Shown in pieces: positions 20,087 to 63,465 of a stretch of 64,000 nucleotides of DNA (position 1 is its first letter; each line of letters begins with the position of its first letter). The position numbers were made by a program, and so were the translations under genes. The notes under the pieces were generated by a model. The model was not told the origin of the DNA. It saw only the letters and a list, made by a program, of their open reading frames with translations, and made no database searches. Origin of the DNA: an uncultured Clostridia bacterium (GTDB lineage: Bacteria; Bacillota; Clostridia; Christensenellales; CAMQZB01); contig CAMQZB010000004.1 in assembly GCA_947039455.1 (NCBI GenBank), positions 39,990-103,989 of the forward strand, in the 5' to 3' direction.

Positions 20087-20163
20087 ACATGGGGCTTCAC
20101 CCCAAACCCCACAAGGGGCAGTAACCCTTGACCCCATAATGTTTTGAAAAAAACTAGCTAAGA
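20087..20163 (+). repeat. GGGGTTTGGGG-type intergenic repeat, copy 1
   Basis: Starts ACATGGGGCTTCACCCCAAA and ends ACCCTTGACCCCATAATG, continuing into the terminator half-stem ACTAGCTAAG. It holds internal inverted repeats (GGGGCTTCACCCC and ACAAGGGGCAGTAACCCTTG). It is nearly identical to copy 2, 116 bp downstream. Confidence 0.85.
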
Positions 20164-20186
20164 GTATCTTGGCTAGTTTTTTTTTG
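20148..20186 (+). terminator. terminator downstream of gyrA
   Basis: AACTAGCTAAGA pairs with TCTTGGCTAGTT and is followed by a T9 run. It sits between repeat copies 1 and 2; a decayed version (ACTAGCTAAGC plus T-run) follows copy 2. Confidence 0.85.
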
Positions 20187-20202
20187 TTTAATTGTTAAGA
20201 AA

Positions 20203-20279
20203 CATGGGGCTTCACCCCAAACCCCACAAGGGTCAGTAACCCTTGACCCCATAATGTTTTGTAAAAGACTAGCTAAGCA
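20203..20279 (+). repeat. GGGGTTTGGGG-type intergenic repeat, copy 2
   Basis: It repeats copy 1 with very few changes (GGGTCAG for GGGGCAG) and carries the same flanking ACTAGCTAAG. The pair looks like a tandem duplication of repeat plus terminator. Confidence 0.85.
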
Positions 20280-20371
20280 TTTTTTAGGTAGAATTTTTAT
20301 ATAACCAAAAGCAAACACATAAATAAATCACACCCAAAAAGAAGCGACAGCACAAAAACCGCTTAAAAAAG

Positions 20372-42249: not shown

Positions 42250-42335
42250 GCGTTTTATTATAACCATATGTCAAAACCCTAAACAAAAAAAACAACACAA
42301 ACTAAAAAATATATCACCCCCCAACTCAACATGTT

Positions 42336-42570
42336 CACCAGCCAAACCAGTCCGCAACTCCAACACGTCCACCAGCCAAACCAGTCCGCAACTCCAACAC
42401 GTCCACCAGCCCAACCAGTCCGCAACTCCAACACGTCCACCAGCCCAACCAGTCAGCAACTCAACATGTTCACCAGCCAAACCAGTCAGCAACTCCAACA
42501 TGTCCACCAGCCAAACCAGTCCACAACCCAACCAGTCCACAACCCAACCAGTCCACAAACCTAATCAGTC
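42336..42570. repeat. 34-bp tandem repeat (minisatellite), C/A-rich and G-poor
   Basis: About five head-to-tail copies of a 34-bp unit beginning CACCAGCCAAACCAGTCCGC (starts 42336, 42370, 42404, 42438, 42471; the fourth is 33 bp), then shorter 15-bp units CCAACCAGTCCACAA. There are no spacers between copies, so it is not CRISPR. All frames stay open because of composition. 34 is not a multiple of three, so the reading frame rotates from unit to unit, which argues against coding. It lies in a 700-bp gap between terminators. Confidence 0.9.
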
Positions 42571-42654
42571 CACAACACCATCAAATCCGCCAATCCAATA
42601 AACCCAAACCAACCCACAAACCTGTCCCATCGCCCAAAAAAAATACCCCCCAAA

Positions 42655-46318: not shown

Positions 46319-49300
46319 ATGAGAAAAGTTAGTAAAAGAGTATTAAGTGTAGCGCTTGCAATGGTGCTTGTGATAGGGTTTGTGTTCACGGGAATGCCAG
46401 CTTTTGATTTTACGGTATTTGCAAGTGAGCTTCCAGCCATTGATCCAACTACTGGAATTTTGAACGTTGAAAACACGAACAAAGACATGGTTTTAATAAA
46501 AGTAAATTTCGCTCACAACGGACAACCGTTAGAAGGAGCAGAGGCAGGTTATATTTTCGCGGAACAAAAAGAGTTTGTTGAGTGGTTTGATTTAAAAGCC
46601 TATGGATTAGGTGCGTTAAATCAATATAAAACAGTGAACGGTGTGGAGGTTTTAATAAAAAGACCTACAGCATTGCATGCAATAATTATGTTACATGAAA
46701 ACGAGTTGGTGAACAACCAACATGGCGTTCCTGAATCAGAATTAAAAACATTAGATGACTTTTTCCAAATCGAAAATGGCGTAATAACTAAATTTTGGGG
46801 AAATGCAACTTCATCAACAGCTTTGCTGATAAACGATACTTTCCCATGTGTGGAAGGCGGAGAAAAAGCAACCCCTGACAAAATTTTATTAGAAGATAAC
46901 TTAGTTTTAACTGTAGGAACTTTCAATAATAATTCATTTAAAGAAACAGGTGAGTTCTTGTATTTTAATAGCAATAATAATACGGTTATTGAAGCTGGAA
47001 CTGCAACTGAATTTAATTTACAAGGCACAAAAATTTCGGAAGTAATGGTAAATGGAAGTGCAAGCAAAACGGGGGACGATCTTTTACCAAATGTTTGGGA
47101 GAGATTGACCATTGGTTACGCAACGCAAATTGACATGGCTCATGGAACTTTTGTGGAAATCAAAGCTAAAGACATTGATACGGTAAATAGCACGGTATCA
47201 GTGAAAATTCCTACTGCTGGGTACTATTATATAATGGCATATGACAAAAACCACGGAAAAGATAACGCAGTTTTCGCTCCAGCAGTAATTCCTATCCAAG
47301 TAATGGGAGAAGCGGATTTTGCTATAGCTAAAGCAAGAACACTTCGAGAAAGTCAAATTAGAAGCGAGTTCCGTGATAATGTAGACTACCAAGAAAATTT
47401 ATATACAGCTACGGAATTTTCTAAATTAATAAAAGCAAGAGACAATGCAATTAATTCTTTGAGATATGAAAATACAGTGGAAAGCATAATGGCTGTTACC
47501 CCTGACTACCCAATTTATCCAACGGTTATGACAATAGTTCAACAGGCTGAAATAGCACAAGCAAAAACTGTTAAAATAGCGGAAGTTCAAGGAAAATTTC
47601 AAACTGACTATAGTGTTTCTGAGTATACGGACAAGAATTTTCGAATTATTATGAATGAAAAAGCCACAATCGTAGATGAGATACAAGATATAAAAAACAT
47701 TGAAGATGTTGCGATATTTATTCCAAAATATCCAACCGCAATAAGTAAATTGCCATTAACTATTAATAGAGAAGAAAAAGACGCTATGAAGAAAGAAGTA
47801 GCGGATTATTTAGATATAACGGAATATAGAGCATCAGACAAAGCTGAAATAGCAGAAATAATTGCAAGTGCGGAAAACTTTATTGACGCCACTGCAACGG
47901 AAAACCGTACTGCTAATGTTGGAAATGTGAAAAAAGTATTTGATAAAGTAGATGAAACAAAAACTTTGTTGTTTGGTATTGAAACGGATTATGACCTAAC
48001 GCAAATTGAAAATGGTTGGGTGAATTTCCGTGGTAATAGCGAAAACATGGCTGTTGTTGATTATGATTTTTCAACAAGTGAAAAGGAAAGCGAATTGCTT
48101 TGGAAAAAGAAATATGGGTCATGGATGGGCGGATCTCCAAGTGTGCAAATTATAGTAGACGATGCCTTGATTTTTGTATCTTCAAAAACTATTATTAAGC
48201 TTGACTTGCTAACGGGCGAGCCTGTTAGAAACGAAAAGGGTGAAGCTGTGGAAGGAACTATGGTGGAAAGTTCAAACTGGGGCTACACTCCACCGATTTA
48301 TGCTCGTGGCATGATAATTTGCGGATTAGCTAACGGCACGGTGCAAGCGTTTGATGCGGAAACACTGGAGTCGCTTTGGGTTTATACTGATCCACTTGGG
48401 GGACAATCTTTGACACCAATTGCTTATTCTGACGGAAATATCTATACTGGGTTTTGGAACTTGGAAGAAGGCGACGCTAACTATGTTTGTATAAATATTG
48501 AAGATGAAAACAAAAATAGCACTAACGAAGAAAAGATTGCAACATGGAGCCACACAAACAAAGGCGGTTACTATTGGACTGGCGCACTTGTTGTTGGCGA
48601 CTATCTAGTTGTTGGTTCGGACAACGGAGAAAGGGAGTTTGCGGAAGAAGATATCAATGCAAATTCAACATTATTTGTGTTTAATAAATACACAGGAGCG
48701 GTGGAACATAGCTATCAAATCAGCGGTGACCAACGTTCAGGAATAGCATACGAAAGTGGCAATATATATTTCACCACAAAAAACGGATATATACACAAAG
48801 GCGCAATAAATGAAAACACGGGAGCGATTACAAACCTAAAATCAGTAAAAGCACCATTTGGATCAGAGCTTACAAGCACGCCAGTAGTTTTTGACGGAAG
48901 AATGTATCTAGGTGGCGGTTCAGGAGTGGGAAGTGGCGGTGCTGTGATGGTGCTAGATGCCAATAACCTAACGGAAATTTACCGTGCAAGTATGCCCGGT
49001 TACGGACAAGGTTCAATCTTGCTGTCAACTGTGGATTATAAAAAACCAGGTGACGATGTTTATATCTATTCCACATACAATTCATACCCAGGCGGTATTT
49101 CAATGCTAGTTGACAACAAAAATATAACAAGCAATGAAAAATCTGAAATGGTGGATATATACATACCAGAAAGTGCAGATCAAAACTATGGAATAACAAG
49201 TATTATTGGAAGCGGCAATGGAGTTTTATATTACAAAAACGACTCAGGAAACGTATTTGCCGTAGGTAATAAAACGGCTAACTCAGATGTTGGTGAAGTA

Positions 49301-49771
49301 ATTCCAATTAAAGAAAACCACATTGTTTTAAGTTCTATCATGGCTGAAATGAAGTCAAATGGAATGAAAATCGTAACTGCAGACCTGTCAGCGGTGGGGT
49401 ATATAACAAGAGATATTCTGGAAATGCAACAAAAAACAGGTAAAGATTTAGTATTGAAATTTAAACAAGGACAAGTTTTGATAACTGCAGAAATGGCGAA
49501 AAGCATAGATTATGAAGAAGTAAATTATGACTTTGACCAATTAATTCAGCTGTTTGGGGCGGACATTGCCATTGATACAGTTCCAATTCCAATGCCAGAA
49601 AAAACGGAAGTTGAGGCAACTCATGAAGAGTATATAAATACAAAATTAATCAATATTACGCTAATAACTCTAGCGGTTGCAGCAGGAGCTGGTGTGGTTG
49701 CCACAGCAACAGTATTGACAATACAAAAAAAACGTAGAAAAGTATCAAATATAGATAAGAACAAAAATTAA
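46319..49771 (+). CDS. surface protein with signal peptide, PQQ-like beta-propeller and C-terminal membrane anchor
   Basis: First gene of the B12-riboswitch operon, 1150 aa. A signal peptide covers residues 1-36 (VLSVALAMVLVIGFVFTGMP). Residues about 40-335 are beta-rich. Helical, FIVAR-like segments (AKARTLRESQIRSEFRDNV) lie at about 335-560. Residues about 590-1010 resemble a PQQ/outer-membrane-assembly-type propeller with repeats such as GTVQAFDAETLESLWVYTD and SDGNIYTGFWN. A further small domain precedes a membrane helix at about 1110-1135 and a basic tail (QKKRRK). The protein is therefore displayed outside the cell. Its role in B12 uptake is not known; a binding or docking platform is possible. 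Confidence 0.85.
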   Translation: MRKVSKRVLSVALAMVLVIGFVFTGMPAFDFTVFASELPAIDPTTGILNVENTNKDMVLIKVNFAHNGQPLEGAEAGYIFAEQKEFVEWFDLKAYGLGALNQYKTVNGVEVLIKRPTALHAIIMLHENELVNNQHGVPESELKTLDDFFQIENGVITKFWGNATSSTALLINDTFPCVEGGEKATPDKILLEDNLVLTVGTFNNNSFKETGEFLYFNSNNNTVIEAGTATEFNLQGTKISEVMVNGSASKTGDDLLPNVWERLTIGYATQIDMAHGTFVEIKAKDIDTVNSTVSVKIPTAGYYYIMAYDKNHGKDNAVFAPAVIPIQVMGEADFAIAKARTLRESQIRSEFRDNVDYQENLYTATEFSKLIKARDNAINSLRYENTVESIMAVTPDYPIYPTVMTIVQQAEIAQAKTVKIAEVQGKFQTDYSVSEYTDKNFRIIMNEKATIVDEIQDIKNIEDVAIFIPKYPTAISKLPLTINREEKDAMKKEVADYLDITEYRASDKAEIAEIIASAENFIDATATENRTANVGNVKKVFDKVDETKTLLFGIETDYDLTQIENGWVNFRGNSENMAVVDYDFSTSEKESELLWKKKYGSWMGGSPSVQIIVDDALIFVSSKTIIKLDLLTGEPVRNEKGEAVEGTMVESSNWGYTPPIYARGMIICGLANGTVQAFDAETLESLWVYTDPLGGQSLTPIAYSDGNIYTGFWNLEEGDANYVCINIEDENKNSTNEEKIATWSHTNKGGYYWTGALVVGDYLVVGSDNGEREFAEEDINANSTLFVFNKYTGAVEHSYQISGDQRSGIAYESGNIYFTTKNGYIHKGAINENTGAITNLKSVKAPFGSELTSTPVVFDGRMYLGGGSGVGSGGAVMVLDANNLTEIYRASMPGYGQGSILLSTVDYKKPGDDVYIYSTYNSYPGGISMLVDNKNITSNEKSEMVDIYIPESADQNYGITSIIGSGNGVLYYKNDSGNVFAVGNKTANSDVGEVIPIKENHIVLSSIMAEMKSNGMKIVTADLSAVGYITRDILEMQQKTGKDLVLKFKQGQVLITAEMAKSIDYEEVNYDFDQLIQLFGADIAIDTVPIPMPEKTEVEATHEEYINTKLINITLITLAVAAGAGVVATATVLTIQKKRRKVSNIDKNKN

Positions 49772-49828
49772 TTGTTCATATATAAAATAGATTAATAAAA
49801 AGTTGATGATCGCATTGTGGAGGAAATA

Positions 49829-50749
49829 ATGAACAAAAAAATATTAAGTATAGCGTTATCCCTTATTTTGATGCTAGCAGTATTTACAGGCTGTGTTGCT
49901 GGGGAATCGGATATAAATAAAGACGAAAACAATGGTGATTTACATGACATAATAGAAACGCCCGTTGTCCCAACTTCTGAACCTACTGCTGAACCTATAA
50001 CTACTAAAGCTCCAACGGGTGGCGGTGGCGGTTCTGGTGGCGGTGGAAGCGGTGGAAGTGGCGGAGGTGGAACTACTCCAGAATTGCCAGAAATAACTAT
50101 TACAATGTCTCTAGAAGCCTTCACTATCGGTTTAGGATATATCATAGAACCAATGTCAGTTACTCTGCCAAAAGGCAAAACCCATACAGCAAAAGAAGCA
50201 CTATTTCAATTTTTTAAAGCTAATGGCGTAACACCAGAAGGCAACGATGACAACGATTACGGTACATACTATATGTCGTCAATTTCAAGTGATAACATAA
50301 ATAAAAGCGGATGTAAAATACCCCAACTATTACTTGACAAAGGTGTTGTGGACCTAGGTTCAGACGCGCTAGAAAAATCATTAGGGCAAGGTGATTATTC
50401 AATCGGCTCAGGGTGGATGTATTCAGTGGACAACAATTTCCCTAGCAAAGGTTTTGCGGATTACCAAATTAATGACGGTGATGTTATGAGAATTCAGTTC
50501 ACAACAGCCTTAGGCTGTGACCTAGTGGGAAGGGGTTTTGTGGAAGGTGACGGACGGTTTTTCGGAAATGCAGGAGATAAAACCGCACTAACTAAATTAG
50601 TGGGAAAAATCAACAGCGAAAACAACATAACAATAAAAAACAGCAACGAATATATAACAGCAATAGAGGTTTTACAGGAACTTAACACATCAGTTGAATC
50701 CGTTGAAACTACTTATAATAATTTAAAAACACAATACGAGAAGAAATAG
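49829..50749 (+). CDS. DUF4430 (transcobalamin C-terminal-like) lipoprotein
   Basis: A 306-aa lipoprotein; I start at ATG 49829 with GGAGG five bases upstream. Cys22 follows a signal sequence (FTGC). A Pro/Thr linker and a Gly/Ser run (64-82) act as a tether. Residues 90-232 are a DUF4430 domain, with GSGWMYSVDNNFPSKG and DGDVMRIQF. The same fold forms the C-terminal beta domain of transcobalamin and intrinsic factor. A helical tail follows. It probably helps bind cobalamin at the cell surface. Eight bp separate it from the next gene. Confidence 0.88.
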   Translation: MNKKILSIALSLILMLAVFTGCVAGESDINKDENNGDLHDIIETPVVPTSEPTAEPITTKAPTGGGGGSGGGGSGGSGGGGTTPELPEITITMSLEAFTIGLGYIIEPMSVTLPKGKTHTAKEALFQFFKANGVTPEGNDDNDYGTYYMSSISSDNINKSGCKIPQLLLDKGVVDLGSDALEKSLGQGDYSIGSGWMYSVDNNFPSKGFADYQINDGDVMRIQFTTALGCDLVGRGFVEGDGRFFGNAGDKTALTKLVGKINSENNITIKNSNEYITAIEVLQELNTSVESVETTYNNLKTQYEKK

Positions 50750-50757
50750 GTAAATTT

Positions 50758-52653
50758 ATGAAAAAAGCGAACTCAATAATCGGAATAATCCTTGTGATTG
50801 CACTAATATTCACTGGACTATCAACAAAAACAGCCGTAGCATATGGTGACGAGAATTTTAATAGAAAAGATATTTTTGCGGTTGATAGTTTAATTGAAGA
50901 TGTGATTAATTGGAAGAAAAGCAATATGGGCTATGAAGTGACAGAGTCTCTATTTCAAGACGAGTTTTTAGAAATGGCAGGTTCAACTTCAGGGGATTGG
51001 TACGCAATGGCACTTGGTCGATATGGTTATGAGGATAACTACGGAAGTTATCTTGGGGTAATTGATGACTACATTGAAACAGAGTATAAAACTGATGCGA
51101 AACTAGATATTTACAAAGCAACCGAATGGCAAAGAATAGGTCTAGCAATAACAGCAGTTGGCGGAAATCCAAAAGCTTTTTCTAACTTTGAAGGTTCGCC
51201 AATTGACTTAGTGTCGGATGGTTCTTACAATCGTGGTTTAGTGCAAAGCCCAGGTCGACAAGGCATTAACGGTTGGATATACGGACTAATTTTCATGGAT
51301 AGCAAAAGATACGAAATTCCTGATACTGCTAATGACACAAGAGAAGATTTTATTTTGGAATTGTTGAAACTACAGCTAGCGGACGGCGGATTTGCACTTA
51401 TGGGCAATAAATCCGATGTGGACATAACCGCAATGACACTGCAAGCACTAGCACCATACTACAATAGTGAAAGAGAGTTTTCCTATGTTTCAGCAAAAAT
51501 AAAAGACGAAAAAGGTGAGTTTATCCCCCAAGTAAAGACAGTTCGTGAAGTAGTAGATGAAAGTGTTCTGTTTTTGTCAAGTACTCAGAATGAAACAGGA
51601 ACTTTCGCCAGTTGGGGTAGCGAAAACAGCGAAAGTAGTAGTCAAGTAATTCTTGCATTAACAGCGTTGAGAATAGACCCTCACAACGATCAACGCTTTG
51701 TGAAAAACGACAAGTCCGCCATTGATGGATTGTTAACATTCAAGCAAAATGACGGCGGTTTTACACATTCTTATAGTTTCGATAGTGAAAATCCTAATGC
51801 GGTACCAAGTGTTTCCTCGTCAATGGCAAGCGAGCAAGCGCTTTGTGCATTGATTTCCTACGATAGATTTCTTAGTAATCAAAGAACATTCTACGATATG
51901 CGTGAAGATTTCACGGTGGAGGAAATAGCACAAATTAGTGCTGTTGAAAAGTCTATTGAAAGGCTGAACCAAAACTCAACCAAACTAGAAATTCAACAGA
52001 TAGTTTCTACACTAGAAGAAAGTAACATAACGGATTTATCTTATGTAAACAATTATTGGAATCTTTCAGCTTATGCAAAAAAACACCATGTGAAATTGCT
52101 TGCCGAGAAGGAAATCTATCAAGGAAATCAGGAAGAATTAATTGAAAACATTGTGGCATTTACTGATGTGAACGTAAAGCAAGTGGAAGCGTTAATTGAT
52201 TATGAAAATCTTACAACGGAAAATTACGTTGAAGTTGTGCATTTAATGTATTTGCTTGAAAATACCAACGAGTTCCAAAAGAAAAACCAATATAAAACTA
52301 TTGTTGATAAAGCGTATAATCATATCCAATCTATCAAAAGCGAAATTGAATATATTAACATGAAAATCACTACAGAGCTTTATCCATTTAGCAAATTATC
52401 CTTAAAAGACAAGGCAGTTTGCGAAGAAATTTTCAATAGATACGAAAATTTAAGCCAAGTAGATAAGGGTGAAGTAACACACATTGATGATTTAATAAGA
52501 GCGAAAACTCAGCTTGACAATCTCACAACGGCATGGATTATAGGTGGTGGTCTATCAGCAATTTCACTTGTAGTTATTGCGATTGTTGTTATTAGAATTA
52601 GAAAAAGACAAAAAGTGAAAAGAAGTATGGAAATGGAAGAAAGTCAGGAGTAA
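50758..52653 (+). CDS. alpha/alpha-toroid (prenyltransferase/squalene-cyclase-like) surface protein
   Basis: The protein is 631 aa with a signal peptide (IIGIILVIALIFTGLST, then AVAYG). Residues about 45-385 form an alpha/alpha toroid with repeated QLADGGFALMG, STQNETGTFASWG and KQNDGGFTHSYS motifs, as in squalene-cyclase-like folds. It lacks an obvious DxDD catalytic acid motif, so it is unlikely to be a cyclase. Helical repeats follow (about 385-590), then a membrane helix (591-613) and basic tail. Flanked by two DUF4430 genes, it corresponds to the alpha6/alpha6 barrel half of transcobalamin-type proteins. Its stop is 2 bp from the next start. Confidence 0.85.
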   Translation: MKKANSIIGIILVIALIFTGLSTKTAVAYGDENFNRKDIFAVDSLIEDVINWKKSNMGYEVTESLFQDEFLEMAGSTSGDWYAMALGRYGYEDNYGSYLGVIDDYIETEYKTDAKLDIYKATEWQRIGLAITAVGGNPKAFSNFEGSPIDLVSDGSYNRGLVQSPGRQGINGWIYGLIFMDSKRYEIPDTANDTREDFILELLKLQLADGGFALMGNKSDVDITAMTLQALAPYYNSEREFSYVSAKIKDEKGEFIPQVKTVREVVDESVLFLSSTQNETGTFASWGSENSESSSQVILALTALRIDPHNDQRFVKNDKSAIDGLLTFKQNDGGFTHSYSFDSENPNAVPSVSSSMASEQALCALISYDRFLSNQRTFYDMREDFTVEEIAQISAVEKSIERLNQNSTKLEIQQIVSTLEESNITDLSYVNNYWNLSAYAKKHHVKLLAEKEIYQGNQEELIENIVAFTDVNVKQVEALIDYENLTTENYVEVVHLMYLLENTNEFQKKNQYKTIVDKAYNHIQSIKSEIEYINMKITTELYPFSKLSLKDKAVCEEIFNRYENLSQVDKGEVTHIDDLIRAKTQLDNLTTAWIIGGGLSAISLVVIAIVVIRIRKRQKVKRSMEMEESQE

Positions 52654-52655
52654 TT

Positions 52656-53201
52656 ATGAAAAAAGATTTAGTTGCTATTGCGGTTGTGGTATTTATTTTA
52701 GTAATATTACTTAGCGGTACGAAAATTCAGTCGGTGGACGATTATTATTTAACCCACATCGATGAAATAACTGATGACAGCGAAACTATCTATATTTCTA
52801 TAGATTGCAAAACGGTTTTGGATAATTGGGATAAGCTAGACGAGAGTCTGCAAAACGAGAAATTCATTCCAGCGGAGGGGATTGTGCTAGAAAAAAGCCA
52901 GTATGTTTTACGCCCTGATGACAATGCGTTTGACGTGTTGGATCGAGCAATACGGCACAATGAAATTCAAATGGAAGCTGTTTATAGTAAGGGTTTCGGA
53001 AGCAACTACGTGAAAGGGATAAATCATTTATACGAATTCAGCTGTGGCGAATTGTCAGGGTGGATGTATAAAGTCAATGGTGAATTTCCAAGCTACGGAG
53101 CAAGTAAGTATGAATTGCAAGACGGAGACTATGTTGAATGGGTTTATAGTTGCGATTTGGGGCGCGATGTAGGAAGTGAATGGGGGGCGCAAACAGCATG
53201 A
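52656..53201 (+). CDS. membrane-anchored DUF4430 (transcobalamin C-terminal-like) protein
   Basis: This is a 181-aa protein. Residues 4-22 form an N-terminal hydrophobic segment without a lipobox Cys, so it is an uncleaved anchor or a signal. Residues about 45-170 are a DUF4430 domain with SGWMYKVNGEFPSYG and DGDYVEWVYS. It is the second beta-domain protein in the operon. Its TGA stop overlaps the EcfT start (ATGA), which ties its synthesis to the importer. It is likely the membrane-proximal cobalamin-handling protein. Confidence 0.88.
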   Translation: MKKDLVAIAVVVFILVILLSGTKIQSVDDYYLTHIDEITDDSETIYISIDCKTVLDNWDKLDESLQNEKFIPAEGIVLEKSQYVLRPDDNAFDVLDRAIRHNEIQMEAVYSKGFGSNYVKGINHLYEFSCGELSGWMYKVNGEFPSYGASKYELQDGDYVEWVYSCDLGRDVGSEWGAQTA

Positions 53202-54079
53202 AATATTTTCACAACTGCCACCCTGTGGTGATGTTCAGTTACCTAATAGGCGTAATATTTATAACAATGTTCACAATGAATCCAATCTTTATCGGAATAT
53301 CATTTCTATGTTCTATATCTTTTACATTCATGCTATTTGGTGCAAAAGAAACAGTGAAATCTTTGCTATTAGCAATGCCAATGATAATCATTATTGCATT
53401 AACAAATCCACTATTTGTTCACAAAGGCGAAACGGTTTTATTTTTTCTAAACAATAATCCAATGACACTAGAAGCAATGATATACGGATTATTCGCAGCA
53501 CTAATGTTAGTTTCAGTGTTCTATTGGTTCAAGTGTTACAACAGATTAATGACCAGTGATAAGTTTATATATTTATTCGGACAAGTAATTCCAAAATTAG
53601 CGTTAATGCTATCAATGATGTTAAATTTTGTACCGAAATTCATAAAGCAATTCAAGGCGGTAGACGAGAGTCAAAAAGCCATGGGAATATATTCAGGCAG
53701 TTCGTATACAGATAAGATAAAATGCAAATTTAGAGTATTATCAAGCTTAATAACATGGAGTTTGGAAAACTCAATTGAAACAGCTGACTCAATGAAAGCC
53801 CGTGGATACGGATTGAAAGGTCGAACAAGTTATAGTGTTTTTCCTTGGAAAACTAGCGATAAATTGTTAATGAGCTACTTCGGTGTAATGATAATAATCG
53901 TGACGGTGGGATTATTTACAGGATATGCGGACTTTGATTATTATCCAAAAATCACTAGAATGTCATTTGAAATTATTCCAATATTACTATATTTTGGCGG
54001 GTTTATTTTGATGTTTACATCTACAATCATGGAAATTAAGGAGAATATGTTATGGCATTACTTGAAATCAAAAATTTAA
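53198..54079 (+). CDS. ecfT: ECF transporter transmembrane subunit EcfT
   Basis: EcfT is the integral membrane coupling subunit of energy-coupling factor importers. The protein is 293 aa with about five to six hydrophobic segments. The two coupling-helix motifs are SQKAMG and SMKARGYG, the second being the canonical Ala-Arg-Gly. I start at ATG 53198, overlapping the preceding stop by 4 bp (ATGA). Its 3' end overlaps the ATPase gene by 28 bp. Confidence 0.9.
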   Translation: MKYFHNCHPVVMFSYLIGVIFITMFTMNPIFIGISFLCSISFTFMLFGAKETVKSLLLAMPMIIIIALTNPLFVHKGETVLFFLNNNPMTLEAMIYGLFAALMLVSVFYWFKCYNRLMTSDKFIYLFGQVIPKLALMLSMMLNFVPKFIKQFKAVDESQKAMGIYSGSSYTDKIKCKFRVLSSLITWSLENSIETADSMKARGYGLKGRTSYSVFPWKTSDKLLMSYFGVMIIIVTVGLFTGYADFDYYPKITRMSFEIIPILLYFGGFILMFTSTIMEIKENMLWHYLKSKI

Positions 54080-55731
54080 CATTCAAATACAACGGCGGAA
54101 AAGATAATGCACTTGAAAAGGTTAATCTAACAGTAAATGAGGGTGAATTTGTAGTGATTTGTGGCGAGTCAGGTTGTGGAAAAAGCACACTGTTGAAAAT
54201 GCTGAAAAAACAACTTGCCCCTGCAGGAGAAAAAACAGGCGAAATCTTATACGACGGTGTAGAAGTTGACGGTCTTCAAGAACGTGTTTCAGTAGCAGAG
54301 ATTGGCTACGTAATGCAAAATCCCGACAATCAAATCGTAACTGATAAAGTGTGGCATGAACTTGCTTTTGGGCTAGAGAGTATGGGCGAAAAAACTGATG
54401 TAATACGCAGAAAAGTAGCGGAAGTATCAGGGTTTTTCGGAATTAATAGTTGGTATAGGAAGAAAACTTCAGAGTTGTCGGGCGGACAAAAACAACTAGT
54501 AAATTTAGCGTCAATTATGGTAATGAATCCACGATTACTAATACTGGACGAACCCACAAGTCAACTAGACCCAATCGGTGCAATGGAATTTATATCAACC
54601 TTGCAAAAAATTAATATTGAGCTTGGAATGACTGTAATTTTAGTTGAACATAGGTTAGAAGACGTTTTTCCAATAGCGGACAAAGTTGTGGTAATGGATA
54701 AATCTAATATTTTAATGACAGATACCCCAACAAATATAGGTGCAAATTTAAGAAAAATTTCTACTCATAAAATGAACCTAGCAATGCCAACCGCAGTGCG
54801 AATTTTCGGACAGCTAGACTGTGATTGTGCCTGTCCAATTACTATTAAAGAAGGCAAGAATTTTTTGAAACGCAATTTTGAAAACAAAATCCGTTCTATA
54901 GAAGTGCAAACTGAAACTAACGAAAACAAAAATGTTGCATTGGAAATTTCTGAAGGATATTTTAGGTATGAAAGAGAAACGCCTGATGTTTTAAATAATC
55001 TTTCTTTAAAAGTTTATGAAAATGAATTCATGTGTATTTTGGGAGGAAATGGTTCGGGGAAAACCACAACTTTGAAAATTCTTTCAGGATTAAAGAAACT
55101 CTACAAAGGCAAACTACGTATTTGGGGCAAGAAAATAAAGGAATATAAAGGCACGGAGCTTTATAAAAACAACATATCCTTTCTACCGCAAAACCCTCAA
55201 ACGCTTTTTGTTAGAAGTACGGTAATTGAAGATTTAATGGAAGTTGTGGAGATTTTGAAGTTTGACAAAGAAGAAAGCCAAAAACTCATAGACGAAATTT
55301 CGGAAAAACTTGAAATCAGCCATTTACACAATCAGCACCCTTACGATTTATCTGGTGGTGAGCAACAAAAAGTAGCATTTGCTAAAATACTATTAACAAG
55401 ACCAAAAATTATTTTACTAGACGAACCAACTAAAGGAATGGACGCATATTCAAAAAAATCTTTGGCAGAAATAATATACAAGCTAAAAAGCGAAGGAATG
55501 ACGATCTGCATGGTAACTCATGATATTGAATTCGCAGGTGAATTTGCTGATAGATGTTGTATGTTTTTCGATGGACAAATAGTCTCATCAGCACCGCCGA
55601 TTGAGTTTTTCTCAACAAACACGTACTACACAACATCAGCAATGCGAATTTCAAGAGGATTTTTTGATAATTCAATTACCACAAGTATGGTTGTAAGGCT
55701 TTGTAAAAGTAACAATCGAAAATCAAATTGA
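54052..55731 (+). CDS. fused ECF transporter ATPase (EcfA-EcfA)
   Basis: The protein is 559 aa with two ABC domains. Domain 1 has Walker A GESGCGKST at 38-46, Q-loop VMQNPDNQ, signature LSGGQKQL, Walker B LLILDEPTSQLDP and H-loop VEHR. Domain 2 has GGNGSGKTT at 331-339, QNPQTLF, LSGGEQQKVAFAK, IILLDEPTKGMD and VTHD. Both sites look active. Most ECF systems encode the two ATPases separately; here they are one polypeptide. The gene overlaps ecfT. It powers uptake through EcfT and the S component. Confidence 0.92.
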   Translation: MALLEIKNLTFKYNGGKDNALEKVNLTVNEGEFVVICGESGCGKSTLLKMLKKQLAPAGEKTGEILYDGVEVDGLQERVSVAEIGYVMQNPDNQIVTDKVWHELAFGLESMGEKTDVIRRKVAEVSGFFGINSWYRKKTSELSGGQKQLVNLASIMVMNPRLLILDEPTSQLDPIGAMEFISTLQKINIELGMTVILVEHRLEDVFPIADKVVVMDKSNILMTDTPTNIGANLRKISTHKMNLAMPTAVRIFGQLDCDCACPITIKEGKNFLKRNFENKIRSIEVQTETNENKNVALEISEGYFRYERETPDVLNNLSLKVYENEFMCILGGNGSGKTTTLKILSGLKKLYKGKLRIWGKKIKEYKGTELYKNNISFLPQNPQTLFVRSTVIEDLMEVVEILKFDKEESQKLIDEISEKLEISHLHNQHPYDLSGGEQQKVAFAKILLTRPKIILLDEPTKGMDAYSKKSLAEIIYKLKSEGMTICMVTHDIEFAGEFADRCCMFFDGQIVSSAPPIEFFSTNTYYTTSAMRISRGFFDNSITTSMVVRLCKSNNRKSN

Positions 55732-55803
55732 ATTTAATTTCAGTAAAAGTAATATGATATGAAAACTAAAATAATGGAATAAAGAAAAAAAGAGGTAACT
55801 ATC

Positions 55804-56508
55804 GTGACATATGTAAAGAGAAAGAAGTTAATATTTAGCGTACTTATGTATTTCGTAGCAATCCCACTTACGATATTGTTGGGCGTGGTGTTGTTTAATG
55901 ACAGACAGTATTCAATAATATCGATTATCATAGCAGGATTAGCATGTTTGCCGTTTTTCATACGATTTGAGAAAAGCAATGCAAGTTCCAGAGAAATTAT
56001 AGTAATAGCAACAATGACCGCACTAGCAGTGGTAGGGCGAATAGTGTTTATGGCATTGCCGGGGTTCAAACCGGTAACGGCAATAGTAATAATCACAGCG
56101 ATAGCATTCGGAAAAGACGCAGGGTTTCTAACGGGTTCAATGTCAGCGTTAGTGTCGAACATATATTATGGACAAGGACCATGGACGCCGTTTCAAATGT
56201 TAGCATGGGGATTCATAGGCTTTCTTGCAGGGATGATCTTTTATAAAAAAGAAAAGCCAAATATGATATTGTTAATAGTAGTAGGAATAATAGGAGGGGT
56301 AATTTTCTCTCTAATGATGGACGTGTGGACGGTGCTTGCACTCGATGGTGCGTTCACAATGTCAAGGTACTTGATAGCGATTTCCACAAGCACTCCATTC
56401 ATGGTGCTTTACTCAGCATCAAATGCGGCATTTCTAGCACTTTTCACAAAGCCAATATTGGAAAAGCTCAACCGAATAAAAGTAAAGTACAAGGTGTTCA
56501 CAGCATAG
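55804..56508 (+). CDS. ECF transporter S component, probably cobalamin-specific
   Basis: This is a 234-aa membrane protein with about six helices. It has ECF S-component features: REIIVIATMTALAVVGRIVF for contact with EcfT, then FLTGSMSALVSNIYYGQGPW. It starts with GTG, GAGG eight bases upstream, 72 bp after the ATPase. Specificity for cobalamin is inferred from the upstream B12 riboswitch and the DUF4430 partners; the protein is reminiscent of CbrT-type S components, but I cannot prove the substrate from sequence. Confidence 0.82.
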   Translation: MTYVKRKKLIFSVLMYFVAIPLTILLGVVLFNDRQYSIISIIIAGLACLPFFIRFEKSNASSREIIVIATMTALAVVGRIVFMALPGFKPVTAIVIITAIAFGKDAGFLTGSMSALVSNIYYGQGPWTPFQMLAWGFIGFLAGMIFYKKEKPNMILLIVVGIIGGVIFSLMMDVWTVLALDGAFTMSRYLIAISTSTPFMVLYSASNAAFLALFTKPILEKLNRIKVKYKVFTA

Positions 56509-56905: not shown

Positions 56906-56934
56906 TTGAATAATTAAACTACACGTGCTATAAT
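56906..56934 (+). promoter_or_regulatory. promoter of lipoprotein 1
   Basis: TTGAAT and TATAAT are spaced by 17 bp, 137 bp before ATG 57072. The rest of the 56565-57071 gap is AT-rich with no gene; the leader contains CCAAGCACCAA at 56969. Confidence 0.65.
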
Positions 56935-57024
56935 AACATTAATGATTATTATTATGAGGAACTTGACGCCAAGCACCAAACTCCGTTGAAGAACCGATAT
57001 TAACTAAAATCAAGCAAATTAACA

Positions 57025-57151
57025 AAAAAAATAACTAAAACAAACTATTGATTTATTTTAGGAGGTAGTTTATGAAAAACAGAGTATTACGTTTAGCTAT
57101 CGTTGCACTTTTAGTAGTGGCAATGGTTCTAACTATGGCGGCATGTGGTGA
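57025..57151 (+). repeat. duplicated leader/signal-peptide cassette, copy 1
   Basis: About 127 bp from the A-run before ATAACTAAAACAAACTATTG to the codon after the lipobox Cys is identical to 60230-60356. It covers the ribosome site TTTTAGGAGGTAG and the first 26 codons. Confidence 0.92.
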
Positions 57152-59654
57152 GGATCCGGTTAACCCAACTCCAACTCCAGGCCCAGAAGTAACAACAACA
57201 CCTACACCAGACGACACGTCTAAACCAGATGAGACAGCAAAACCACCAGTTGGTTCTGATGAATCTCAATTGGAATCTAAATACGGCATCACATTCCCTG
57301 AATTTGATGGTAAATTAGCATTCGATTCTGAGTATGCAACGTACAACGTAGCTGGTGAAGATAATTTTGGTGATTACAAATTGGTAGCTAAGAAAAACGG
57401 TACCGATGCTAAAATCCAAATCGCTGTACCAGCTCCATTTGAAAACCAAGCTTACGATGCATTCCTTAACCAAAGCGGAAGCAAACAACCAAAAATTGAA
57501 GTAAACGTTGAAGGCACAGCTGCAAACGGTGATGATATTGACGTTGTAATTGAGCAATTATTGATGGATGGAAAACCAGCACCAGATGGTACAAACCTAG
57601 AGACTAAAGACCAATTGTACTTCGTTCCTGCTCATGCTGGAACTTACGTTGTAGAATATACAATCGAGTTCAGCGCTGACGCAAAATCTTATGGATTCTA
57701 TGCAGCAGAAGAGATCGAAGAAGAATATACAGTTGTAAAAACTTATGAAGTAGCAAAAATGAACGTTGAAGTAGAAGCGGTTAGTGATGTATTCTATGTA
57801 AAGACAGTACAAACTTTCCCAGCGGCACCAATCAACGTAGTAGAAATTGACATTGCTGATGATGCAGTATTAAACAAATCTGTTGAAGACTTTATCGTGA
57901 ATTCATTAAGAGGCGAAGACGGAGATTACAACTTATCAGTTGGAATTACAACTCCTGATTTAGCAGTAGCTGATAATTACCCACTTGAATTGTCATTCAC
58001 GTTTGATGGCGCTGCTGCTGAAGCATCTGATCTAGTATCAAATGATTTCAATGCAACATTCACAAACGGAACACGTTATGTATTCGACGAAGCTGACCAA
58101 GCAACTTTCAAAAGTTCAATGGAAGCTTTAAACAGATTGGTAAACAAATACACTGACGCTGACACTGGAAAAACTGAAGGTGCTGTTAATGTTGAAAAAC
58201 CTTTCGCAACAACTGACGATTTGAAATTGTTCATTGCAACTTACGAAGGTTTGGAATCAGACATCGCTGGAGCACTAGCTGTTGCCGCTTATGACGCTGA
58301 TCCATCTAGACAATTCAAACCAGAGAACAAATTAACTGCAAACACAGTTACTACTCAAGTAGCAGGAATCGCGGTTCAAAAAGCTAACCTTGAAAGATCT
58401 AACCTAGTAATCGAAGCTAAAGAGTTATACGAGATTTATCTTGGAAAACAATATAGCGACGCTGCTAAAAATGATTTCATTGCTTACATGCTTGGACTTG
58501 GCAGATTGCCAACAGTTCCTGGACTTGATTCAGATTACGCCTATGTATCAGCTCAAATAGCTGAGCCAAAAGCTACTGAAATTGTTGATACGTATGTAGA
58601 AGATATGCTAGAGGCATTTACAAAATCAGTTGCATTGTCTAAGACAGCTATGTTTGAATTCATTGAAACAATCAATCAATCAACAATTAACGCTGCTGAA
58701 AAAGCTTTAGCATCTGTTGTTGAAAAGTATGATGATCTTCCAGCTCACTTAAAAACTGGTGATAATGAAACTGCACTTCTTGCAGAGCAAGTTATGTATT
58801 ATGAAATGTCTACAAGATTCGAAACTTATACTTCAATTATTGAAGGTTTAGATTCTTATATTCACAAAACAGGTGCTCTTGATACGAAAGCAACTTTAAC
58901 AGCAATGGGCGAGTTGACAGGATTTAACTTTGACGCATCTGCGAAAAACGTTAATGTACCACAAGCTGTATGGGCTCCAAAAACAGGCGAAGGTATGCCA
59001 ACATTAGCTGAATTATTGTTCACTGTTGTTGATGTTAAAACAGGAGCAATTCCTGCTTCTGCTGACGTTACTATGGCACCAGTACTTCCAATTTTATTAA
59101 CTTCTGATGTAGCTACTGCTCAAAGAGTAATCATTGATTCATATATTGCTCTTGATGACGCTATCGTAGCTGCTCAAAAAGATATCATTTCAAAACTTGG
59201 AACAAAAATTACAGGTGCAGTTGCAACTCCAGATGGTACTCTTCTAGGATTCACTCTTACAGGTGCTACTGTTGATGCTTTAGCACTTCCTGATGCTTTC
59301 GCATCATACACTCCAGCAGGTGCCGATACTCAAGATGGATTTGTGTTCCATCAAGGTGAACAAGCAGATGCTTTATCTGTATTAGAGTCACTTAAAAAAT
59401 ATATCGCTGAGTTTGCACTTTTAAGTGTTGTTACTTTAGAAGATATTGATTTAGCTGATGGATCTACTGTAACAGGTGTTAAAGTACCATTCGTTGCTCT
59501 TGAAGATGATAGCTTAACAGTTGTTATTGAAGAAATTCTTACAGAAGCAATCGAAAATGTTGATCAATTTATTGAAGACTACAATGGTAAATCAGCTCTT
59601 AACAAAGCAACAGACACTAGTGCAGAATATGTGTATCCAACATTTACAGCTTAA
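57072..59654 (+). CDS. large lipoprotein 1 of unknown function
   Basis: This is an 860-aa protein. The signal peptide MKNRVLRLAIVALLVVAMVL ends in a lipobox with Cys25 (MAACG). A Pro/Thr/Asp linker (about 27-62) follows, then beta-rich modules (residues 75-345) and helical, FIVAR-like segments. It is rich in Ala, Val, Asp and Thr and poor in Cys. No known domain is recognised. It shares its leader and signal sequence with lipoprotein 2. Its adjacency to the B12 operon does not prove a link; a terminator separates them. Confidence 0.78.
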   Translation: MKNRVLRLAIVALLVVAMVLTMAACGEDPVNPTPTPGPEVTTTPTPDDTSKPDETAKPPVGSDESQLESKYGITFPEFDGKLAFDSEYATYNVAGEDNFGDYKLVAKKNGTDAKIQIAVPAPFENQAYDAFLNQSGSKQPKIEVNVEGTAANGDDIDVVIEQLLMDGKPAPDGTNLETKDQLYFVPAHAGTYVVEYTIEFSADAKSYGFYAAEEIEEEYTVVKTYEVAKMNVEVEAVSDVFYVKTVQTFPAAPINVVEIDIADDAVLNKSVEDFIVNSLRGEDGDYNLSVGITTPDLAVADNYPLELSFTFDGAAAEASDLVSNDFNATFTNGTRYVFDEADQATFKSSMEALNRLVNKYTDADTGKTEGAVNVEKPFATTDDLKLFIATYEGLESDIAGALAVAAYDADPSRQFKPENKLTANTVTTQVAGIAVQKANLERSNLVIEAKELYEIYLGKQYSDAAKNDFIAYMLGLGRLPTVPGLDSDYAYVSAQIAEPKATEIVDTYVEDMLEAFTKSVALSKTAMFEFIETINQSTINAAEKALASVVEKYDDLPAHLKTGDNETALLAEQVMYYEMSTRFETYTSIIEGLDSYIHKTGALDTKATLTAMGELTGFNFDASAKNVNVPQAVWAPKTGEGMPTLAELLFTVVDVKTGAIPASADVTMAPVLPILLTSDVATAQRVIIDSYIALDDAIVAAQKDIISKLGTKITGAVATPDGTLLGFTLTGATVDALALPDAFASYTPAGADTQDGFVFHQGEQADALSVLESLKKYIAEFALLSVVTLEDIDLADGSTVTGVKVPFVALEDDSLTVVIEEILTEAIENVDQFIEDYNGKSALNKATDTSAEYVYPTFTA

Positions 59655-59713
59655 TAGCTAAAAACTAAATATAAGCAAAGGGAACGCAAGTTAACTTTGT
59701 AAATAAATAGAGG

Positions 59714-59745
59714 AAAGGGCAAAGGATTTATTCTTTGCCCTTTTT
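59714..59745 (+). terminator. terminator after lipoprotein 1
   Basis: AAAGGGCAAAGGA pairs with TTCTTTGCCCTTT and ends in T5. The following 59746-60116 stretch has a C/A-rich patch and a hairpin ACCGCT/AGCGGT at 59808-59827, and no gene that I can support. Confidence 0.85.
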
Positions 59746-60116
59746 GCAACCCCAAAAACATCCCCACAAAAAAAACACACATAAGGTCAGACAGCAAAGA
59801 GTAACACACCGCTATCACTACAGCGGTATTGTCTAGAATTATAATTAAAATATATCATATAAACAAATAATACTTATAATGTAGACGAAAAGCGCCATAT
59901 GAAACGCGTTTATATTCAATTAACATCAAAAAGGTGAATAATACTTCGTTTGATAAACAAGAAAGACTAGGTATAAGGCGAAAAAAAATGGATTAAAGTG
60001 TACAACCCACATAGATTAGTGCGTGAAAACATATAGGAAAAACATGACAAATTAACAAAAACTATATAAATTGTACATAAAAACTATATTTAATATTATA
60101 AATAGGTGAAAAACTA

Positions 60117-60145
60117 TTGCATTTTAAACATTAATGTGTTATTAT
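60117..60145 (+). promoter_or_regulatory. promoter of lipoprotein 2
   Basis: TTGCAT and TATTAT are spaced by 17 bp, about 130 bp before ATG 60277, the same distance as for lipoprotein 1. The leader contains TTGGTGCTTGG at 60180, the reverse complement of the motif in leader 1. Confidence 0.55.
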
Positions 60146-60229
60146 ATTATCAACGACAGATTGTCAGTATTTAGTTGAGTTGGTGCTTGGGATAAATACG
60201 ACTATTTTGTAATGTTACAAATTAAAATT

Positions 60230-60356
60230 AAAAAAATAACTAAAACAAACTATTGATTTATTTTAGGAGGTAGTTTATGAAAAACAGAGTATTACGTTTA
60301 GCTATCGTTGCACTTTTAGTAGTGGCAATGGTTCTAACTATGGCGGCATGTGGTGA
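60230..60356 (+). repeat. duplicated leader/signal-peptide cassette, copy 2
   Basis: Identical to 57025-57151, at a constant offset of 3205 bp. Identity stops abruptly just past the lipobox Cys codon. Confidence 0.92.
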
Positions 60357-63129
60357 TCCAGTGGTAACACCAGATCCAACAACAACGCCAACAACAACAA
60401 CAACGCCTGACGGCACACCATCACCAGATGATACTTCTAAACCAGAAGTTCCTCTAGTAGGTGACGAAGCAATTGCAAAATCAACTTACGGAGTTGAAGT
60501 TATCAACGTTGAAAGCACTTATGCTAACAATGATAATTTCGTAATTTTGAAATATGATGTGAAATTGCTTGAAAATTACAAACTTACAATGGCAACAACG
60601 AACTTAGTAGCGGGATCAATTAACACAATTAAATTCCCATTCGAAGTTACTTCTAAAGTTTCATATGATGGAGACAACAAATTTGACTCAACTGCATTAA
60701 AGACACTTGGAGAGATTGTTCCAGTATTCATGAATGCTGATGGCAAATATGTAAGAGAAGTTGCAGCTAAAGCTGCAGTTGGAGATACTCCAGAGGTTAA
60801 AGCTGTAATCGCTCCAGCTGGAACAACTTTCTATCCAGCAGTTGCACTTTCTGATGCAGGTTTATATGAAGTTGAATTTTCAATTACTGCTACTGATCTA
60901 GGATTTGGATTCGGACAATTTGGATTTATCCAAGCTGACGAAGCTGAATATTCATTAATGGGAACTGCAAACATCGCAAAAGCTGATGTAGTTGTTGCTG
61001 CAAATGATTTCGTTCACGTAGTTGCTGATGCATCAACAGAAGTTGGCGCTATTACAAAAGTTAACCCATTCGATGTAAGAGCATTCGAGGAAAAGTCAGC
61101 AGCAACGTCTACTACGGATGCAGTATTGGAAAACTATTCTATAGTAGCAATTCCTACAAACACAGATTTGTCAGCAAATGCTGTTAATGAACTTTTAGCT
61201 GCTTTGAAAACTTCTAAAATGTCATTTGGTATTTCTTCAAGCGATGTTTATGATGTAACTAAAGTTTCTTCATTCGAGTTAGCAGTTAATTTATATGACA
61301 CTGATACTGCTGCAGTTAATGTTAAAGATGTCGTTAAAATCGATGAGCTTGTTGTTGGAAACTACAACGTAACTCTTGAAAACGGTACACAACATTTCAT
61401 CAGCAAATATGATTGGAACGTAGTACGTGATACTGCAACTTCAATCCTTGAAAGAGGAACTGTCGTAGTTGCTCCTGCTAAATCTGTTCCAGTTGCTGAT
61501 AAAGTAGCTCTTGCTAGAGCTCGTTACGACGCATTAACAGATGAGCAAAAAGTATTCTTCACTTCTGGTGCAATACTAAAGACTGGGTCTACTGATGCTA
61601 TTCTTGTTGAAAATGTAAATATTGGAACATTTGATTCTGACAAAGATTTTAAAGATGCTGATATGGATACTATAAACGGTATTGCCCTTTACAAATTATT
61701 GACTGCTGATGAGAAAATTATCTCTGACGCTAAAGTAGTTGCTGCATTTGATAAAGTAGCGGTAGATTCACTATTCATTAAATCTTTCGACAAAAAGTTC
61801 GAAGTTTCTAACGGAGAGCACAGAACTGCCTATGACACTTTAAATGCATATTTCCAAGCATTGTCTGACGAAGACAAAGCTATAGTAAAAAAAGCTGAAG
61901 GCAAAACTGGTATTGATACTCCTTATGAGAAATACAAGTCAGTAGCTGGAGCATTTGATATTGCAGCAGTTAATGAGGTTAAATCATTGATCAACGGATC
62001 TGCAGCTGCGTATAACACAGCTGTAGTAAAAGCAAAAGCTGAAGAAAAATTGTATGTTGCTGAAGAACTTGCTACAACAGTTTCTGGAAAAGGTTATCCT
62101 TTGATTTACTTGTCAACAAACAGTGAAAACGTTATGTCATTCACAGCTCTAGCTAGAACTGCTTATGACAAATTAACTGATTCACAAAAATTAGTTATGG
62201 CTATTAAACCTGATCCTGCTGATACTGATTTCGCTAAGTCACAAGACAATATGATGGCTACAGTTATAACTTATACAGATGTACTTGTTGCTCTTGAAAT
62301 GATGAACGACGTGATTGGATCAATGAAAGAAGTTGTTTCACATTACGCTTATTATGACTTGTCAACAAAAGATTCTCCAGCTTTCAGCTCTATCGACGCT
62401 ATCATTAGAGGTAAAAATACTACTAAAGATGCTGGTACTGGTGTGTTAGTAAATACAGATAAAACTTATTTCGCTGGTGCTTACGATAAACTACCTGGTT
62501 ATAATTTCGACGCAACTGTGCCTGCTACTGCTACTGCGGCTGGTTTTACTCCTGATTATTTAGATAGAAAGCTAGCATCCGCTGCTGAAGATATTCTTCG
62601 TGCATACGATCAAGATTCAGCTCATATGGACGCTGTTGTAGCTGAATATAAAGCTGCAATCGACTACGTAGTTGCTGGTGAAGCTTACAAAACTGCTGCG
62701 ATTGCTGCATTAAATGAGCTAATTGCTGTAGAATTCAGTGCTGATGATTATTCAGACGGACAAACATCTGCTGCAATATCTTCAAAGAACGATCTTCTTG
62801 AAGCTATTACTTTAGTAATAACTATGGAAGGCAAAGTTGATACAACTGTAGCTTCATCTGCTGATGCAACTAAAATTCATTTAGGTGCTGAATTCGCGAC
62901 AGCGGACACTATTCTTCTTACAGATATCGTTAAGATGACTGTTGGTGAATTATTAAGAGCTAACAAAGGCGATTCTTACGCAGAAGTTATTGAAGAGTTT
63001 GAGTCATTGTTTAACGTTGATAAAGCTTTCGACGAATATATCTCAGTAGGTACATTTACTCCTGCTGGTACTGGTACGGTAGCTGTTAAGAAGTATTTCT
63101 TCGAATCAACTAAAGTAACATTGGCTTAA
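60277..63129 (+). CDS. large lipoprotein 2 of unknown function
   Basis: This is a 950-aa protein with the same signal peptide and Cys25 as lipoprotein 1. A Thr/Pro linker (TTTPTTTTTPDGTPSPDD) is followed by beta-rich modules (about 70-370). Helical repeats follow, with recurrent YDxLTDEQKxF/YDKLTDSQKLV and AYFQALSDEDKAIV motifs, a pattern seen in FIVAR/albumin-binding-like helical bundles. No catalytic motif is visible. A surface structural or binding role is likely, but not proven. It is preceded by its own promoter and followed by a terminator. Confidence 0.78.
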   Translation: MKNRVLRLAIVALLVVAMVLTMAACGDPVVTPDPTTTPTTTTTPDGTPSPDDTSKPEVPLVGDEAIAKSTYGVEVINVESTYANNDNFVILKYDVKLLENYKLTMATTNLVAGSINTIKFPFEVTSKVSYDGDNKFDSTALKTLGEIVPVFMNADGKYVREVAAKAAVGDTPEVKAVIAPAGTTFYPAVALSDAGLYEVEFSITATDLGFGFGQFGFIQADEAEYSLMGTANIAKADVVVAANDFVHVVADASTEVGAITKVNPFDVRAFEEKSAATSTTDAVLENYSIVAIPTNTDLSANAVNELLAALKTSKMSFGISSSDVYDVTKVSSFELAVNLYDTDTAAVNVKDVVKIDELVVGNYNVTLENGTQHFISKYDWNVVRDTATSILERGTVVVAPAKSVPVADKVALARARYDALTDEQKVFFTSGAILKTGSTDAILVENVNIGTFDSDKDFKDADMDTINGIALYKLLTADEKIISDAKVVAAFDKVAVDSLFIKSFDKKFEVSNGEHRTAYDTLNAYFQALSDEDKAIVKKAEGKTGIDTPYEKYKSVAGAFDIAAVNEVKSLINGSAAAYNTAVVKAKAEEKLYVAEELATTVSGKGYPLIYLSTNSENVMSFTALARTAYDKLTDSQKLVMAIKPDPADTDFAKSQDNMMATVITYTDVLVALEMMNDVIGSMKEVVSHYAYYDLSTKDSPAFSSIDAIIRGKNTTKDAGTGVLVNTDKTYFAGAYDKLPGYNFDATVPATATAAGFTPDYLDRKLASAAEDILRAYDQDSAHMDAVVAEYKAAIDYVVAGEAYKTAAIAALNELIAVEFSADDYSDGQTSAAISSKNDLLEAITLVITMEGKVDTTVASSADATKIHLGAEFATADTILLTDIVKMTVGELLRANKGDSYAEVIEEFESLFNVDKAFDEYISVGTFTPAGTGTVAVKKYFFESTKVTLA

Positions 63130-63196: not shown

Positions 63197-63230
63197 ACGG
63201 AAAGGTATTTATTTGCCTTTCCGTTTTTTT
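63197..63230 (+). terminator. terminator after lipoprotein 2
   Basis: ACGGAAAGG pairs with CCTTTCCGT and is followed by T7. Confidence 0.88.
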
Positions 63231-63231
63231 A

Positions 63232-63465
63232 TACCCAAAATCCCATCCCCCCAAAGCCCATCCCCACAAAAGCCATCCCCCAAAGCCCCATCCCCACAAA
63301 GACCCACCCAACAGCACCACAGAAATTCCCCAACCAATATTCCACTATCCACCCAAACCAAAACTCAATTCCCCATCCCATAACGCCCCCCCCAATAGTT
63401 GCAAACTCTCCCAAAACCCACCCAACACCATTAAAAATACAAAAATTACCCAAATCAAACCACAT
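63232..63465. repeat. C/A-rich, G-poor low-complexity tract (G-runs on the minus strand)
   Basis: Degenerate repeats of CCCCAAAGCCC and ATCCCCACAAA fill the first 80 bp, followed by further CCCA-rich sequence. The minus strand carries closely spaced GGGG runs. The minus-strand ORF in the track (Gly/Trp/Phe-rich) reflects composition only. No gene is supported between 63231 and the T-box promoter. Confidence 0.8.

Follow-up and report, generated by a model that had tools for sequence, protein, structure and literature searches.

Two neighbouring lipoprotein genes share an exactly repeated 127-bp leader, while the mature proteins encoded behind it have strongly diverged. This repeat is a real footprint of recent recombination in two tandem genes for orphan lipoproteins, a pair that is otherwise ordinary. 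The best reading of the pair, and one that we consider fairly probable, is that the two genes are old tandem paralogues whose leader was recently homogenised by gene conversion. If this is true, the locus offers a clean case of ordinary gene conversion that made the signal and ribosome site uniform in spite of the divergence of the proteins downstream; identity of two signal peptides is not, in itself, a sign of recent gene duplication.

Both genes lie on the plus strand of the window, the 64,000-nucleotide stretch of DNA analysed here, and both are intact open reading frames. Gene 1 (57072-59654) encodes a predicted lipoprotein of 860 aa, made up of a signal, a Thr/Pro linker, an N-terminal domain and a C-terminal half, and gene 2 (60277-63129) encodes a predicted lipoprotein of 950 aa. 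The two proteins are predicted to be large surface lipoproteins, presumably exposed to the exterior. By direct base comparison, positions 57025-57151 (copy 1, plus strand) and 60230-60356 (copy 2, plus strand) are exactly identical over 127 bp at an offset of 3205, the exact match extending no further on either side, and the two copies form a tandem pair 3.2 kb apart. The match is far longer than chance would produce. The repeated cassette comprises 47 bp of the 5'UTR with an AGGAGG ribosome site, the signal peptide and the lipobox; its coding part is a 26-codon start (MKNRVLRLAIVALLVVAMVLTMAACG) that includes the lipobox Cys and the following Gly, and then two bases of the next codon. The preliminary description of this DNA, which had reported 127 bp of identity through the ribosome site, signal peptide and lipobox, is thereby borne out to the base. 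Its remark that identity stops at once holds for the exact match and is slightly overstated for the 3' side. Upstream of both cassettes the identity per 20 bp is at background (2-9/20), whereas downstream the first tens of bases, over the start of the linker, are 11-14/20 identical before background is reached, a residual likeness that is present because both proteins open with a Thr/Pro/Asp linker (GEDP/GDP). A repeat finder stretched the cassette pair to 179 nt at 88%.

Judging from sequence signals, the two genes seem to be transcribed as separate units, each having its own promoter-like site and probable terminator. Upstream of gene 1, a consensus scan identified TTGAAT-17-TATAAT with a TG before the second hexamer (56906-56934, plus strand), which has 10/12 consensus matches and is a sequence match, not proof of function. 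A weak promoter-like TTGCAT-17-TATTAT was recognised by eye upstream of gene 2 (60117-60145, plus strand); the consensus scan does not include this site and gives an overlapping TTTAAA-16-TATTAT at 60123-60150. Hairpins with T-runs were found by scan 3' of both genes. The one behind gene 1, a hairpin followed by a T-run at 59714-59743 that we read by eye on the plus strand, is a probable terminator, and the scan places the same stem on the minus strand; the one behind gene 2 is a terminator-like hairpin at 63197-63224 (plus strand, scan). The intergenic DNA that follows the genes, at 63230-63430 and also at 59745-59780, is almost pure A + C on the plus strand (ACCCAAAATCCCATCCCCCC...), a strong strand bias.

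The preliminary description had called for a genome-wide search for further copies of the cassette. This search, run on the available genome (1.85 Mb in 31 contigs, 92% complete), returned the two copies only, and the next best match was 24 bp at 92%. In a sequence search the cassette was also absent from 60 related genomes, one per species and all from outside this bacterium's family, and from the viral contigs and genome contigs that were scanned. For the mature proteins, searches of 248 and 297 genomes of the order yielded no usable relatives, only short weak matches over the signal, linker and N-terminus, in G038 and G130. Nothing usable was returned by the scan of genome contigs, by a search of plasmids with protein 1, by a search of phages with protein 2 or by a search of the PDB, and Pfam and NCBIfam held no usable family for either protein, gene 1 being without a Pfam match above cut-off. 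No relative showing an ancestral arrangement of the pair came to light in these searches. We discounted a match to the NCBIfam entry 'invert_tail' (E 0.026-0.058, far below cut-off), which covers the signal and linker only; the term was absent from the literature searched. AlphaFold models of the mature parts had pLDDT below 30, and below 50 at every residue.

The two proteins were also compared with each other. The mature proteins align at about 28% identity. Full-length BLASTP of gene 1 against gene 2 gives 31% over 407 columns, a value helped by the signal, and without the signal and linker it gives an E value of only 0.054. In shuffle tests, the N-terminal mature domains without signal and linker reached a local score of 110 (Z about 8.7; 200 shuffles with mean 45.6, standard deviation 7.4 and maximum 76), and the C-terminal halves reached a Z of 2.3, that is, no detectable similarity. 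A full-length relative of gene 2, a protein of 990 aa (P0001, L081:4432-7404; Z 29), is encoded on contig C3; judged by its alignment, it is a clear, diverged paralogue of gene 2. Its gene is located close to genes resembling an amino-acid-type ABC transporter. When gene 2 and the C3 protein were combined into a profile, it matched the N-terminal domain of gene 1 with an E value of 2e-4, and hhalign assigned the same match a probability of only 47%. Outside the reading frames, the stretches downstream of the stop codons, which hold the terminator-like hairpins, align with a score of 37 against a maximum of 26 in 200 shuffles, partly on low-complexity sequence. Based on these comparisons, the two genes are probably paralogues that have diverged, and not a common leader placed before unrelated proteins, the evidence for gene 1 being modest. 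The two proteins had earlier been described as sharing architecture and not sequence: the layout is indeed the same, but the denial of sequence similarity was too strong, as the N-terminal domains are weakly but significantly similar.

Under the gene conversion reading, the mature regions of these tandem paralogues would have diverged long ago, while the short leader would have stayed similar enough to serve as a recombination substrate. One leader copy would then recently have overwritten the other by homologous (RecA-type) gene conversion, and the sharp edges of the 127-bp tract would mark where usable homology ended, only the leader being alike enough to recombine. The type of event we infer, and either copy may have been the donor. 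Recent copying of the leader, the part of the earlier proposal of 'recent gene conversion or cassette shuffling' that stands, is favoured because 0 differences are found in 127 bp against strongly diverged flanks and mature regions; the absence of any difference at some 67 UTR and synonymous sites places the divergence below about 4.5% (95%). Gene conversion in tandem paralogues likewise produces one perfectly identical segment with diverged flanks in linked copies, whereas the tract seen here covers UTR and signal only and not much of the gene. As a side effect, the direct repeats could recombine with each other and delete gene 1 seamlessly, with the frame of gene 2 undisturbed, which would place the shared leader and gene 2 behind promoter 1.

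It was proposed for the erp genes of Borrelia that a leader is transplanted, and a swap of this kind could have left a constant expression and export module that now serves two surface proteins here, with strains perhaps carrying other mature genes at the locus. We regard this as rather unlikely for the present pair. A constant leader in front of different C-terminal halves is what it would produce, and the Erp family demonstrates that such events happen: erp genes have a single ancestral leader sequence, while the rest of their reading frames are independent in origin and often recombine (PMC10016077). The Erp lipoproteins of Borrelia burgdorferi (OspE/OspF/Elp, with their 'upstream homology box') are indeed the closest known analogue, combining a constant leader peptide with strongly differing mature lipoproteins, a pattern that was attributed to recombination between loci (PMC10016077). 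However, Erp loci reside on many cp32 prophages, occur as many alleles and are preceded by a conserved promoter and operator, whereas the present pair consists of two genes in tandem on a single contig. A conserved promoter and operator of the Erp type is missing here, identity being at background upstream of 57025 and 60230, and the two genes have neither the promoter nor the upstream part of the 5'UTR in common. The mature N-terminal domains, in another difference from Erp, look homologous, and this also speaks against a swap. The shuffling half of the earlier proposal is not supported: against it, as against the swap, stand the presence of two copies only in the genome and the lack of silent mature cassettes or a recombinase nearby; there is no evidence for a larger shuffling system.

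In a manner comparable to Borrelia Erp, though in an unrelated low-GC bacterium, the locus might also be an expression site, at which a constant 127-bp translation and export module would recombine with varied mature lipoprotein genes that differ among strains, a suggestion that we find quite doubtful. If strains exist that carry different mature genes downstream of the leader, this would be a surface-diversity locus in a little-known lineage.

Selection could instead hold the leader identical, for example for co-regulation through the ribosome site, a hairpin or the signal peptide. The identical block does sit in the 5'UTR and end just past the lipobox, near functional borders, and a weak possible AAACTA/TAGTTT hairpin may enclose the ribosome site (centroid fold, copy 2). 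However, synonymous sites are identical too, and the RNA folding of the leaders is no better than that of shuffles (z 0.18 and -0.33); Rfam contains no family at either leader. Functional constraint fails to explain the identity because the leader of the C3 paralogue differs almost everywhere, agreeing with the cassette at 46/127 positions. The starts of four further lipoproteins in the genome, which also have quite different leaders, match it at 44-56/127 positions, and lipoproteins here therefore do not need the cassette sequence. Overall, constraint is a very unlikely source of the repeat.

We think it highly improbable that a short-read assembler made the repeat or its identity. Many contig ends have overlaps of exactly 55 nt, either with another contig or with themselves, and the window itself ends where contig C4 ends, with contig C8 opening with the same 55 nt. 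De Bruijn assemblers leave k-long overlaps and pop bubbles, and the 55-nt overlaps are the signature of such an assembly with k = 55, and hence of short reads. The length of 127 was considered as an assembler k-mer length and rejected, as the contig-end overlaps are 55 nt. Since the 127-bp repeat is longer than k, its two copies would first have been merged in the assembly graph and separated at a later step. Such merging could have erased a SNP in the central ~17 nt, where it would be flanked by 55 identical bases to the left and to the right, but differences nearer to the edges of the repeat would likely have survived. Only one linear walk visits every edge of the graph A-R-B-R-D, which forces the order unless B is a separate circle; because this path is unique, the gene arrangement is probably right.

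Clustered lipoprotein genes with near-identical 5'UTRs are also found in the Vpma system of Mycoplasma agalactiae and the Vsp system of M. bovis (PMC2268961). In M. agalactiae, the 72 nt before the vpma start codons differ at no more than 5 positions and hold Xer1-dependent inversion sites (PMC2268961). These loci, however, have an adjacent Xer1-type recombinase and six or more inverting genes, and vpma has a single promoter, whereas here there is a promoter-like site for each gene and no recombinase near the locus: inspection of the translations revealed no recombinase genes among the open reading frames of the window and the first 6 kb of contig C8. The two 5'UTRs of our pair contain an 11-bp inverted repeat (CCAAGCACCAA) at 56969-56979 and 60180-60190, 45 and 39 bp before the cassettes, which has just one other copy in the genome and which is near chance and at best suggestive. 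A site-specific inversion or phase-variation switch acting through this repeat, as in Mycoplasma vpma/vsp, is scarcely credible: the inverted pair is exact and lies at similar distances from both cassettes, and its length of 11 was reached by only 12/2000 shuffled UTR pairs, but it was found after the fact, the same length was reached by 73/300 shuffles of the full intergenic pair, the inversion would flip gene 1 and part gene 2 from its promoter, and no gene for a recombinase is close by.

Several other features were observed in the window and its surroundings. A cobalamin riboswitch (Rfam RF00174, 45874-46071) is located upstream of genes at 46319-56508 that encode a large propeller-like surface protein, two DUF4430 proteins, a 631-aa transcobalamin-like protein and an ECF transporter (T, fused A/A', S). 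Together, the riboswitch and these genes probably form an operon for the capture and import of B12. A T-box leader (Rfam RF00230, 63631-63867) lies at the end of contig C4, and the start of contig C8 carries genes resembling an ABC transporter substrate-binding lipoprotein and permease, which are the likely target of this T-box leader. Palindromic G+C-rich intergenic repeats of the form CCCCAAACCCC..AAGG..CCTTGACCC occur at 20087-20183 and 20202-20298 and throughout this low-GC genome; their core, CCCCTTGACCC, has 86 occurrences compared with 0 for a reversed control and is often found at contig ends. Finally, the repeat finder detected an array of 17/34-bp repeats (CAACTCCAACACGTCCACCAGCCAAACCAGTCCG) at 42288-42617, in an A/C-biased intergenic stretch.
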